A stretch of DNA of 64,000 nucleotides. It comes from Candidatus Gastranaerophilales bacterium (GTDB lineage Bacteria > Cyanobacteriota > Vampirovibrionia > Gastranaerophilales > Gastranaerophilaceae). Positions 23,727 through 53,776 of this stretch are shown here, piece by piece (positions within the stretch are counted from its first letter, which is position 1; each line of letters opens with the position of its first letter). A program made the translations under genes and the position numbers. The notes under the pieces were generated by a model. It worked only from the letters and a program-made list of their open reading frames with translations. It searched no databases and was not told the DNA's origin. The DNA is taken from NCBI GenBank assembly GCA_944323145.1, contig CALURJ010000003.1:1-64000 (forward strand). The letters run 5' to 3'.

Positions 23727-23755
23727 TTGAAAAATTCTAGACGGTTTGTTATACT
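23727..23755 (+). promoter_or_regulatory. Promoter of prepilin A, overlapping the aroF terminator
   Basis: TTGAAA (23727-23732) and TATACT (23750-23755) are 17 bp apart. The -10 lies in the stem-loop of the aroF terminator. Confidence 0.5.
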
Positions 23756-23773
23756 AATAACAAATCGTTTTTG
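23740..23773 (+). terminator. Terminator of the DAHP synthase gene
   Basis: CGGTTTGTTAT and ATAACAAATCG form an 11-bp stem with one G-T pair, followed by TTTTTG. Confidence 0.65.
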
Positions 23774-23792
23774 ATATTGAAAGAGGGAAAGT

Positions 23793-24981
23793 ATGAATAT
23801 ATTAAAAAATATTAAGAATATCGGGGGGGGGGCCTCTAGGCTCTGAAGGAACTGTTTTTATTTGTCATCCAGCACTGGTTGCGGGATCTGATGGAGTATT
23901 AGAAGATAAGGAGGTAGGAGGGTATGCCTTTATCGGTGAGTGCAGCCCGCGTAAAACTCTTTTCCCTCTCTTGGAAGATGGATTAAGGGAGAGGGTATTT
24001 TCATGGCATCCTGCTCAAAACGAAGGAACAGAGGATTGTGCTAATGCCGCTAGAATGCGATTGCGGATCAAGTCCGCAATGACGAATTACAACGGACAAG
24101 GAAGCCTTTCCTTACTAGGGAAAGTAAGGATGGGTTTTAAACAATCTAAACCTCACCCCATCCCTCTCCTTTACAAGGAGAGGGGGAACAATTCACCTAA
24201 ATTCACTTCACGTTTTACTGTTCACCCTTCACCTAAAAAACGCACCGCGTTCACTTTGGCAGAAGGCGCTACGCGCGTAGCCCTGCCGAACAGTCAACGT
24301 CGGGCTGCGTTTACTTTGGCAGAAGTTTTAATCACCCTCGGGATAATAGGTGTTGTTGCTGCAATGACCTTGCCTTCCGTTATTACTAAATATGAGAAGC
24401 ACGAAGCAGTTAACAGACTTAAAAAATCATATTCTACAATCAATCAGGCACTTGTATTTTCTCAAGCTGAAAACGGCGATTTTTCCGAATGGGGTATAGA
24501 ACGGCAGGAAGCTGATTGGGATAACTATCAGGATAAACTTTCCAAACTTGTTAAGCAAAATATTATTCCCTATCTAAAAGTCTTAAAAGACTGTGAATAT
24601 GATAAATGTAAAGACGCAGCCGACACAACATTCAGAGATGGTACAGTAAGCAGATGGTATGGTAATAGAACTCATTATGTCATTTATCTTAATGACGGTT
24701 CAAGAATACTGTTTTTTATAAATAATTCTAATGATAATGACGGAATAAACAGATGGCATGAACTCGTAATGTTGTTGGACATTAATGGAGACAGCAAACC
24801 AAACCGTATGGGAAGAGATGTCTTTTCTCTGTATTTATATGCAGATAATAGAAAAGTCAATATGTATGGAACAAGTTTTTCAAGAGAAGCAATGCTGTCT
24901 AATTGTGAAAACTATGGAAGTTATTGCGGCGGACTTATACAAACAGACGGATGGCAAATTAAGGATGACTATCCCTGGTAG
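23793..24981 (+). CDS. Type IV prepilin-like gene A, phase-variable and out of frame at a G10 tract
   Basis: ATG at 23793 with GAGGG upstream opens ten codons (MNILKNIKNI), then a G10 tract (23823-23832). In the current state this frame stops at 23844-23846. The prepilin frame is offset by one and is free of stops from 23806 to 24981, but has no good start; a TTG at 23971 is the first possible one and has no ribosome site. Loss of one G (G9) would join ATG to the prepilin. The body has two prepilin cleavage sites 20 residues apart (FTLAEG at 24250 and FTLAEVLITLG at 24310), a hydrophobic helix and the signature LDINGDSKPNRMGRDVF. It is most likely an exported pilin or pseudopilin whose expression switches on and off. 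Confidence 0.7.
23823..23832 (+). repeat. G10 homopolymer tract at the prepilin A leader
   Basis: Ten consecutive G bases follow the tenth codon of the leader. Changing the count shifts the frame into or out of the prepilin; G9 or G12 would put the ATG in frame. Confidence 0.9.
24268..24281. repeat. 14-bp palindrome inside the duplicated prepilin cleavage site (A)
   Basis: GCTACGCGCGTAGC is self-complementary. It sits in the 60-bp in-frame unit that separates the two FTLAE sites of prepilin A, and the same 14 bases occur in prepilin D (53667-53680). A partial copy lies in the element at 60475-60483. Confidence 0.8.
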
Positions 24982-31898: not shown

Positions 31899-32883
31899 AT
31901 GGCAAGATTAAGAAATGTTAAGTATCCGGGGGGGGGGCTCTTCTAGGCTTCGCCAAAGGGTCAGAGGTCAAGAGGTCAGGAAGGCAAGATGATATCTGCG
32001 GGCAGAACCTGCGTAAAAATAAATTCACTCCCTTATTAGGGAAGGTCAGGATGGGTTTCAATTATTGCTGTTTCTTAAAAAGATCGCTATCCACCCCTAA
32101 CCCCTGTTTTGCCCGCTTTGCGATAAACGGGCACGGCTCCGCCTTTGGCCCTCTGCAAAGCGGGCGTTCCCTAATCAGGGATGGGAAGAATAATTCATTG
32201 AAACGCACTTCTCGTCCTAATGTCTTAACGTCTTATCGTCTTAAGAAAAAAGTTGCCTTCACTCTTGCTGAGGTTTTAATCACCCTCGGTATAATCGGTG
32301 TTGTTGCTGCTATAACAATTCCGGGACTTGTTGCTGATTATCAGAAAAAAGTTTTAGTGGCTCAGTTTAAAAAAACTATTCAAATTTATCAAATGCTCTT
32401 AATTTAGTTCAGGCTGAATACGGTACGGTATATGAATGTTATAATACCGGTTTTGGCCGATATCATATTAATGAGTGCAAACCCTTTTTTGAGCAGTATG
32501 TAAAAAAACTAAATATTATAAAAGAATGTGATGACTGGAAAAATAAATGTCATCCGGAATATAAGACAAAATCTTAAGTTTTGTCTGCTGGCGGCGAAGT
32601 GAATAATAATGCATGTTCATTTGATATTGATTCATATACAACTTATTATACATTATCTGATGGTTCAATGTTTGTTTTGCAAAATACGAATAATAACAGT
32701 CATCATCAGCTATTTCCGTTAGTTGACGTAAACGGAATGAAAGGTCCCAACAAATGGGGGTATGATCTTTATACGTTGACTTTTCAGCGTAACAACGATG
32801 GGCAGAATGTTATATTATCTAATAATGTTTGTGCAATGAAGGAAAAAGGCGGAATGTTTCTTGACGAAGTTTTAGGGGAGTAA
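31899..32883 (+). pseudogene. Prepilin-like gene B, phase-off and decayed
   Basis: ATG at 31899 with GGAG upstream opens MARLRNVKYP, then G10 (31928-31937), and stops soon after at TAG. The prepilin frame is open from 31922 to 32407 and encodes the leader modules and FTLAEVLITLGIIGVVAAITIPG. At about 32370-32376 a one-base deletion breaks it; the reading continues in the next frame, then meets TAA at 32575-32577, and the remaining C-terminus (to 32883) keeps VDVNGMKGPNKWGYDLY. So the locus has a phase-off leader, a frameshift and a nonsense codon, and is a pseudogene. Restoring G11 or G8 alone would not repair it. Confidence 0.8.
31928..32060 (+). repeat. G10 tract and leader repeat module of prepilin B
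   Basis: G10 lies at 31928-31937. The following sequence, translated in the prepilin frame as LLGFAKGSEVKRSGRQ and later PLLGKVRMG, is closely repeated at the prepilin C leader (44124-44230) and in part at prepilin A (GKVRMGF near 24120). Confidence 0.75.
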
Positions 32884-32886
32884 GAT

Positions 32887-32915
32887 TTGCATAAAATTTT
32901 CTAATATGTTATATT
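32887..32915 (+). promoter_or_regulatory. nadK promoter giving a likely leaderless transcript
   Basis: TTGCAT (32887-32892) and TATATT (32910-32915) are 17 bp apart; the -10 ends 7 nt before the nadK ATG and no Shine-Dalgarno fits. Confidence 0.5.
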
Positions 32916-32922
32916 CTGCTGT

Positions 32923-33717
32923 ATGAAAAATTTTGCAATTTGTTTTAATCCTAATATTGATCATTCTGTTGAAATAAAAAATAAACTTTCAAATATTTTG
33001 GTTTCAAGGGGAATTAAAACCACCGCTTTAGATATTGATGGCCTTAAAGAGGGATTTGATTTTGCTTTTGTAATCGGCGGTGACGGTACAATATTAAAAA
33101 CTGCAAGATTTTATGCAAAGTTTCAAACACCTGTTTTTGGTATTAATTTGGGTCGTTTAGGGTTTCTGTCACAATCCTCAAAAGAGGACATTGAAACATC
33201 TGTTGATAAAGTTTTGGCAGGCAAATTTATTGTTGATGAAAGAATTATGTTACAAAGCGGCAATTATACGGCCTTGAATGATTTTGTTTTAAAATGTGCT
33301 TCAATGGGAAGGACATCAAAGTTTGTTCTGAAAATTAATGATAAGCCTGTTTGTGACTATCTTGCGGACGGAATAATTATTTCAACTCCTACAGGTTCAA
33401 CCGCTTACGGCCTGTCTGCCGGCGGCCCTGTTTTGACTCCGTCATTAGAAGCTTTTGTAATAGTGCCTATATGCCCTCATACTCTTACTGCTCGCCCGCT
33501 TGTTATTTCTGATAACGAAAAAATTACTGTCTGCGTGGATGAAGCCAAAGAACACTATTTGTATGCTGACGGTCAGGAAAATATTCTGTTTAATAAAGAA
33601 ATTAATATTGAAAAATCAAATTTAAAAGTGAAACTTGCGCTTCTTGAAAATTCTGATTTTTATTCGGTGTTAAGCGACAAACTTCACTGGGGTGTGCCTC
33701 TTAATTATAATTATTAA
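32923..33717 (+). CDS. nadK: NAD kinase
   Basis: NAD kinase phosphorylates NAD to NADP. The 264-aa protein has the diagnostic VIGGDGTILKTARF (near 50-64), FGINLGRLGFLS (near 73-84), the NE-type region around ALNDFVLKC, and the substrate loop DGIIISTPTGSTAYGLSAGGPVLTP (near 148-172), plus PHTLTARPLVI. Length fits the family. It is placed between the decayed prepilin B and ftsZ, with its own promoter. Confidence 0.94.
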   Translation: MKNFAICFNPNIDHSVEIKNKLSNILVSRGIKTTALDIDGLKEGFDFAFVIGGDGTILKTARFYAKFQTPVFGINLGRLGFLSQSSKEDIETSVDKVLAGKFIVDERIMLQSGNYTALNDFVLKCASMGRTSKFVLKINDKPVCDYLADGIIISTPTGSTAYGLSAGGPVLTPSLEAFVIVPICPHTLTARPLVISDNEKITVCVDEAKEHYLYADGQENILFNKEINIEKSNLKVKLALLENSDFYSVLSDKLHWGVPLNYNY

Positions 33718-44083: not shown

Positions 44084-45044
44084 ATGAGAAAGAATAGTGT
44101 GAATTGTAACTTCGGGGGGGGGGCCTTTAGGCTTCGCCGGAGGCTCAGAGGTTAAGAGGTCAGGAAGGCAAGCTGATATCGGCGGGCAGAGCCCGTGTAA
44201 AAATAAATTCCTTCCCTTATTAGGGAAGGAAATAGAAATTCCCTTAAACAAAAAAACGGCCTTTACTCTTGCTGAGGTTCTAATTACTCTCGGAATTATC
44301 GGTGTTGTTGCGGCAATGACCATTCCTTCAATTGTCGGAAAATATCAGCGAAAGACGCTTGAAAGTCAGTTTAAGAAAACAATTTCAGTTGTTTCTCAAG
44401 TTATTCTGAAATCAAAATCAGAAATGGGAATTGAGAATTTTTCACAATATTGTACAAATTACGATGAGGCTAATAATTTATACACAAATACTAAAGAGTG
44501 TTATAATGTGCTATATCGCAACTTGTTAGCTAAAAATATAAATAGTAAATATGAAAACTGGTCTGCTGGCTGGAGCTATGATATTAGCCGTGAACCTGAG
44601 TCGATAAAAACTTATAATGGTAAGCAGACACTTACTGCAAGTGCTCTTGCTGTAAGCGGATATGGAATATTTAGTACATTTTCGATGTCTGATGGAAGTT
44701 TTATTAACTTTTATATAGGTGAAAGGAATTTATTAATTTCGGTTGATACTAACGGTTTTAAGGCACCGAATAAATTTGGTCATGATATTTTTATACTATA
44801 TGTGAATCCTAAAAATGATGCTGTTTATTTTTACGTGAAACCTAATAATAACTTGACTGATGAAGATATTCAAAATGGTATTGATGACGGGACATACAAA
44901 GAGGATTGGCAGGCTCAAAGAGCAGGGTACCCATGCAGTATAACTTCAAACCAAAGGGCCAACGGTATAGGGTGTATTTACTATGCATTAATAGATAAAT
45001 GCCCGTATGATTCTTCAAAACGGTATTTTGAATGTCTGCCCTAG
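44084..45044 (+). CDS. Type IV prepilin-like gene C, phase-variable and out of frame at a G10 tract
   Basis: ATG at 44084, after a GAGGAG site, opens MRKNSVNCNF, then G10 (44114-44123), and stops soon after. The prepilin frame is offset and is open from 44103 to 45044, so one G less (G9) or two more would join them. The body encodes FTLAEVLITLGIIGVVAAMTIPSIV, a variable pilin-like region with several Cys, and VDTNGFKAPNKFGHDIF. It is the best preserved of the three phase-off copies: no other lesion is seen. The leader module between the tract and FTLAE closely matches that of prepilin B. Confidence 0.72.
44114..44230 (+). repeat. G10 tract and leader repeat module of prepilin C
   Basis: G10 lies at 44114-44123. 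The next about 107 bp is stop-free in the prepilin frame (PLGFAGGSEVKRSGRQADI then CKNKFLPLLGK) and is near-identical in layout to the module at 31938-32045. Confidence 0.8.
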
Positions 45045-52978: not shown

Positions 52979-53776
52979 CTACAAGGATTTCCAGGGGTAA
53001 TCATCTTTTATTTCCCATCCGTCTATCATTATAAGCCTTGAGCATGCTGGAGAGTTTTTTTGACTACATTTATTTATAAGTTCACTTCTACTGTTCCCGA
53101 CCAAGTTACTGTTGCCAACTATAAGCTTTTCATTACTTACAAATGTCATTGAAAATCTGTCTCTGCCGGTTTTATTGGGGGCGTGTATATTGTTAATATC
53201 AACTGTTATCATTAGGGTTTTTGGTCTAATACTGCCATCTGATGTAGTTTCTGCATCAAATGCAAAGGTCAACAACACTCCATTGTTTAACGATATAAAA
53301 TATCCTCCGGATGTTAGATCCGTTGTGTTTATTTTGTCGCCGTAATAGTTTTTATATGTTCTCCACCCATTGTCTGTGTAATCGTTAATATAAGGTAAGA
53401 AATATTTTTTAACGTAAGTTTTAGTTGATTCTGATATGGTTTCTGAAGGTTTATCCCAACTTGATGAGTCTCCGTATTCTGCTTTTGCATGTTCAAGTGC
53501 ATTTGCACAAATAGAATAGGCGCTTGCAAGTCTTTTTGCCGTTACTTTTTTCTGGTGATTTGTAATTAACGAGGGCATTGTCATTGCAGCCACAACACCA
53601 ATAATTCCGAGAGTAATTAAAACCTCAGCTAATGTAAACGCTGCACGACATTGACCGTTCGGCACAGCTACGCGCGTAGCGCCTTCTGCCAGAGTAAAAG
53701 CTCGGTTCCTTGAAACGTTTACAATAAGGCTGTCTTTTCGTAGGGGGGGGCAGTTCAAAGCTTCTCTATTCAACAT
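52979..53776 (-). CDS. Type IV prepilin-like gene D, in frame, with duplicated cleavage site
   Basis: The 265-aa product starts MLNREALNCPPLRKDS, coded through a C8 tract (53743-53750). It has two prepilin cleavage sites: FTLAEG at residues 27-32 and FTLAEVLITLGIIGVVAAM at 47-65, exactly 20 residues apart. The body has the VDINNIHAPNKTGRDRF signature. The start has AGGAGG 7 nt upstream and a good promoter. The peptidase may cut after Ala26 or Ala46; cutting at the first would leave 20 extra residues on the mature pilin. This is the only intact and in-frame prepilin of the five in the window. Confidence 0.8.
   Translation of the reverse strand: MLNREALNCPPLRKDSLIVNVSRNRAFTLAEGATRVAVPNGQCRAAFTLAEVLITLGIIGVVAAMTMPSLITNHQKKVTAKRLASAYSICANALEHAKAEYGDSSSWDKPSETISESTKTYVKKYFLPYINDYTDNGWRTYKNYYGDKINTTDLTSGGYFISLNNGVLLTFAFDAETTSDGSIRPKTLMITVDINNIHAPNKTGRDRFSMTFVSNEKLIVGNSNLVGNSRSELINKCSQKNSPACSRLIMIDGWEIKDDYPWKSL
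53667..53680. repeat. 14-bp palindrome inside the duplicated prepilin cleavage site (D)
   Basis: The same GCTACGCGCGTAGC as in prepilin A, in the 60-bp unit between the two FTLAE sites of prepilin D. Confidence 0.8.
53743..53750 (-). repeat. C8 tract in the coding start of prepilin D
   Basis: Eight C on the coding strand, seven residues after the start, in frame. Any change not divisible by three would shut the gene off. Confidence 0.85.

Follow-up and report, generated by a model that had tools for sequence, protein, structure and literature searches.

The question raised by this locus is how a type IV prepilin gene can be expressed when its reading frame stays open for more than 400 bp upstream of the FTLAE site but offers no good start codon. 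The locus lies in a 64,000-nucleotide stretch of DNA (hereafter the window; positions 1 to 64,000 of contig CALURJ010000003.1, assembly GCA_944323145.1) from a Candidatus Gastranaerophilales bacterium, a gut bacterium related to cyanobacteria. The original prediction held that this open leader, beginning at 23806, is unlikely to arise by chance, that it is translated in some state, and that it is joined to ATG 23793 when a G tract has nine residues. To examine this, we analyzed the locus, the other prepilin genes of the same 1.885-Mb genome, and those of related genomes.

The observation was confirmed. The frame containing FTLAE (at 24250 and 24310) is open from 23806 to the TAG at 24979-24981, i.e., for 444 bp to the first FTLAE and 504 bp to the second. 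In-frame start codons between the tract and the motif are TTG 23971, ATG 24055, TTG 24061, ATG 24079, ATG 24130 and TTG 24256, but none has a convincing Shine-Dalgarno sequence (ATG 24130 follows GGGAAAGTAAGG, which is weak). When the region 23833-24249 was shuffled with dinucleotides kept, this frame remained open in 13 of 20,000 cases, and any of the three frames in 32 of 20,000. However, 23806 is only where the stop-free frame begins. In the ON state the codons before the tract are those of the ATG frame, and the translated part of the leader frame starts after the tract at 23833.

ATG 23793 is preceded by a Shine-Dalgarno-like stretch, AAAGAGGGAAAGT (23780-23792, + strand), and similar purine-rich stretches precede the ATG of most tract-bearing prepilins. 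Further upstream, a promoter-like site, TTGAAA-N17-TATACT (23727-23755, +; 10 of 12 matches, TG before the -10), was found in a consensus scan, although this is not evidence of function and the site overlaps the presumed terminator hairpin (23739-23770) of the upstream DAHP synthase gene. The start segment (23793-23822, +), consisting of the ATG plus 27 nt and encoding MNILKNIKNI, places the ATG exactly 30 nt before a G10 homopolymer at 23823-23832 (+), the presumed slippage switch; this distance is 30 nt in 22 and 29 nt in 14 G-type genes. In the assembled G10 state, the ATG frame reads MNILKNIKNIGGGASRL and ends at the TGA at 23844-23846 after 17 codons. With G9 or G12, it enters the leader and runs through the pilin to 24978 (395 codons with G9), while G10 and G11 are OFF.

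The translated leader (23833-24249, +; 139 codons to the first FTLAE, and including peptides such as VFSWHPAQNEGTEDCANAAR) is a mosaic of modules shared with the leaders of other prepilin genes. It contains a palindromic interspersed repeat with a GCGGATCAAGTCCGC core (24055-24086, +), exact or near-exact copies of which lie at C9:54655, C15:35005 and C3:92798 (C denotes a contig of this genome). It is followed by an upstream duplicate of the cleavage motif, FTLAEGATRVALPNSQRRAA (24250-24309, +), which has no hydrophobic helix behind it and is probably part of the leader in effect. This duplicated motif, 20 residues before the real one and with a GGCGCTACGCGCGTAGCC palindrome at the window site, gives two candidate cleavage sites; the same duplication occurs at window 53638-53698 (-) and C1:77506. 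The predicted cleavage falls between 24309 and 24310 (Ala-Phe), and the mature type IV pilin-like protein (FTLAEVLITLGIIGVVAAM..., 223 aa) and its stop occupy 24310-24981 (+).

The same plan recurs widely in this genome. A DNA search of the genome with this region gave 60 places, nearly all at other genes with FTLAEVLITLGIIGVV, and a pattern for the motif found 47 places, of which about 46 are real FTLAEV prepilins. Thirty-one of them share the order RBS, ATG, 20-35 nt, a run of 8-11 G or C, an open leader and FTLAE; 12 are in frame and 19 out of frame, near the one third expected for random phases. Fifteen others lack a tract in frame, and most of these have short leaders and their own ATG next to the motif; one (gene L048; L denotes a locus) has an interrupted tract, GGGGAGGGGG, that leaves it in frame. 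Three further genes of the plan lie within the window. The gene at 31899-32404 (+) carries a G10 tract and is OFF (ON at G8/G11), and its mature part is frameshifted after 49 codons and resumes in another frame (NALNLVQAEYGTVYEC; window 32258-32960), so it has a second frameshift and may be decaying. The gene at 44084-45044 (+) also carries a G10 tract and is OFF (ON at G9/G12), while that at 52979-53776 (-) has a C8 tract (53743-53750 on + as G8) with its ATG 26 nt before the tract and is ON. Elsewhere, at L023 (C11:22700-25900), two divergent prepilin genes share one intergenic region, one with a G10 and the other with a C9 tract. Interestingly, the core TTC-G10-C of G-type genes (L010, L011, L026, L030 and others) is the reverse complement of the GC10GAA core of many C-type genes, as if one core occurs in both orientations.

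The genome holds 45 G/C runs of nine or more, against about 0.5 expected from base composition. Besides the FTLAEV prepilins, these runs sit in three more prepilins (YTLAEI, FTLAEM) and in glycosyltransferase-like, radical-SAM-like, methyltransferase-like and other genes, as read from the translations rather than from a family search. The tracts inside glycosyltransferase-like genes (L160, L165 and L168 on C1, C9 and C19) suggest a wider surface phasome. Within the genus, genomes carry 0 to 176 such runs, the trait is patchy over the family, and genomes of other families in the order have 0-6. Tract number is very uneven: the related genome G026 has 176, while G021, with about 94 prepilin matches, has only 4. 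Species without tracts still have long prepilin leaders made of interspersed repeats (HAELDSASQDEILKQVQNDV..., at L177 and L181 of G021), so the repeat-filled leader does not depend on the tract.

Is the leader translated? Taking the nearest tract within 700 nt irrespective of frame, 102 of 117 prepilins across this and related genomes are open from tract to motif. The 15 exceptions are one gene of this genome (L034) and 14 genes in two MAGs (CALUYU and CALUYR); in the eight of these that were inspected (L061, L070, L072, L078 and L080 are among the loci with this arrangement), the tract seems to lie in a different, short conserved upstream ORF (ATGCAAAACCCAATCATAGC...GGGGGGGGGGCAGACTAAGG) about 300-500 nt before a prepilin that seems to have its own start. 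In an earlier set there were no stops in 5,028 codons of the FTLAE frame, a count partly biased because tracts had been sought inside the open frame, while the other two frames held 342 and 451 stops, on average about 8%. In 41 of the 102 genes there is no ATG, GTG or TTG between tract and motif, and in 92 there is none preceded by a Shine-Dalgarno match, so the 41 can only be started upstream of the tract. OFF frames stop after a median of 4 codons, and at most 47. Although this is inference from sequence, it makes translation through the tract in one phase the only simple reading, and both parts of the original prediction, translation in some state and joining to ATG 23793 at G9, are supported.

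What is selected in the leader appears to be its frame and hardly its peptide. Homologous leader modules lie in the pilin frame in 231 of 295 same-strand matches, and 45 matches are in inverted orientation. Substitution rates at codon positions 1, 2 and 3 are 0.157, 0.168 and 0.197 in these modules, against 0.195, 0.132 and 0.366 in the mature pilins of the same genes; the third-position excess is 1.22 (bootstrap 95% CI 1.01-1.47) and 2.24 (2.04-2.49), respectively. The expectation of constraint on the frame is therefore right, whereas constraint on the leader peptide is not borne out, as judged from homologous modules rather than from true strains. The closest orthologue of this pilin (L050/L130; 75% aa, 77% nt) aligns only from window 24307, at the cleavage site, and carries an unrelated short C11-type leader, and the flanking genes are not shared. 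Other relatives have no tract or yet another leader. This fits a leader that remains in the cytoplasm and is removed, for which any stop-free sequence will do. A conserved DNA pattern of the start segment gave only the own copy when sought in relatives, a scan of viral contigs for the cassette found nothing, and the leader had no Rfam, Pfam or NCBIfam match.

Tract length does differ between near-identical copies of sister genes, although no second copy of the present locus could be compared. L011 (this genome, G10) and L076 (a related species, G9) are 93.3% identical over 2,155 bp with 98.8% identical tract flanks, and L066 (G9) and L067 (G8) are identical over the first 120 nt downstream of the tract. 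The pairs L066/L067 and L052/L139 have identical sequence downstream of the tract but diverged start segments, as if genes recombine at the tract, but such pairs are few. Contig ends cluster upstream of the pilins (21 upstream against 5 downstream within 800 nt, p=0.0025); as they mostly fall within leader repeats, this is only weak support for tract polymorphism.

The mature part passes the prepilin motif model TIGR02532 (19.1 bits, cut-off 16.3) when residues before the Phe are included, while PF07963 was below its cut-off. It is predicted as a 53-residue N-terminal helix (residues 3-55) plus beta-sheet with a pLDDT of 89. P. aeruginosa PAK pilin ranked first among its structural neighbors, with FimA and gonococcal pilin (PilE) also listed, but Z was only 3-4.3, and Foldseek gave no match with E <= 0.001. 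A prepilin peptidase gene is present (PF01478 at C8:5390-5782, 35.6 bits over a cut-off of 26.5). However, the short hydrophilic leader of 6-26 residues ending in Gly that has been reviewed for type IV pilins (PMC4471445) is not found here, as the ON-state leader has 152 residues to the first FTLAE or 172 to the second and ends in Ala. The protein thus appears to work like a type IV prepilin with an aberrant leader.

Taken together, we consider it highly likely that this is a phase-variable type IV prepilin gene, with switching in living cells inferred. Translation starts at ATG 23793, and the G tract ten codons in sets whether the ribosome continues into the leader-pilin frame or stops within a few codons. 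Slipped-strand mispairing during replication would change the tract by single bases and flip expression at random. In G9/G12 cells, a 395- or 396-residue precursor would be made, the leader would stay on the cytoplasmic side, and the peptidase would cut at A|FTLAEV (24309/24310, the second of the two motifs, since only it is followed by the hydrophobic helix), after which the pilin would join a type IV filament. Cleavage of so long a leader, pilus assembly and the benefit (surface variation against host immunity or phage) are likewise inferred. Against this reading, in relatives only 9 of 64 genes are in the ON phase, below one third, and G10 dominates, which could mean selection for OFF, shared ancestry of cassettes, or that DNA length is not the whole story (for example transcriptional slippage).

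Alternative explanations seem unlikely, and none accounts for the whole pattern as well. Transcriptional slippage or ribosomal frameshifting on the G10 run could make a fixed fraction of in-frame product from an unchanged DNA tract, giving constant low expression. A run of ten Gs may well be long enough for polymerase slippage, G10 is the commonest length, and many genes sit one base from ON. However, tract lengths differ between near-identical copies, and the ON phase needs different lengths modulo 3 in different genes, which a fixed recoding signal would not show, although the two mechanisms can coexist. It is also possible, but less likely still, that the assembled tract length is an error and the true tract is in frame, as homopolymers are error-prone and contig ends cluster on the leader side of these genes. 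Yet the other tracts in this genome are also C8, G9-11 or C9-11 with mixed phases, an error would not alter the architecture, and real length mixtures would cause the same assembly trouble.

Two further possibilities appear very unlikely. Translation might start inside the leader, for example at ATG 24130, with the upstream open frame being a by-product of repeat modules that happen to lack stops; in-frame ATGs do exist at 24055, 24079 and 24130, and L034 has stops between its tract and FTLAE. Against this stand the leaders that hold no ATG, GTG or TTG, the placement of most modules in the pilin frame, and the stops that fill the alternative frames. Nor does the gene look like a pseudogene inactivated by a fixed G10 frameshift, even though the assembled copy is out of frame and at least one sister (window 32258) has a further frameshift in its pilin part. 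The 223-codon pilin part is intact and aligns full length to relatives with an invariant cysteine and C-terminal motif, both the 504-bp leader and the pilin are free of stops, and 12 sisters are in frame.

Phase variation by simple sequence repeats is already known. In Campylobacter, many poly-G/C tracts of 8-11 within coding sequences switch surface structures by frameshift, with 52% 9G, 30% 10G and a median of 20 tracts per C. jejuni genome (PhasomeIt, PMC6321876). In the present case, the commonest target found is a prepilin family, the tract lies before a long leader rather than in the functional protein, the genome holds 45 tracts, and the lineage is a non-photosynthetic cyanobacterial group. 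In Neisseria (phasome paper PMC5953494), slippage near the 5' end probably affects pilus and surface genes such as pilC, opa and the pgt genes, but the pilin gene itself, pilE, seems to vary by gene conversion, while here many separate prepilin genes each carry their own tract. The opa family, with about 11 genes (PMC3745409), likewise has dispersed paralogues that each switch on their own to give combinatorial surfaces; here there are about 31 pilin genes with a presumably cleaved, interchangeable leader. Rickettsia palindromic elements apparently also sit in frame inside protein genes, but the repeats described here are confined to a part that is predicted to be cut off, and no mobility has been shown. 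No paper combining Gastranaerophilales and phase variation was found in the literature searched, which left out most subscription papers; the one hit for Melainabacteria with phase variation was a flagellin survey.

A more far-reaching, and tentative, reading is that Gastranaerophilales carry a pilin phasome of dozens of genes per genome in which the leader is an evolutionary free zone. Because it is cut off, it would take up repeat modules and be selected only for an open frame, while conserved joints at the tract and at the FTLAE site would let start segments, leaders and pilins be reshuffled between genes and species.

Homopolymer phase variation is best studied in small-genome pathogens, whereas here an uncultured gut lineage of the cyanobacterial phylum carries dozens of such tracts in one genome, most of those examined lying in prepilin genes, and still more in a sister species. 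Gene callers will misannotate these genes as late-starting or truncated. The leaders also give a natural experiment, a translated stretch that seems to be kept open but is otherwise free. With about 30 independent switches, a population could display very many pilin combinations, which would bear on gut colonization, immune recognition and phage attack.
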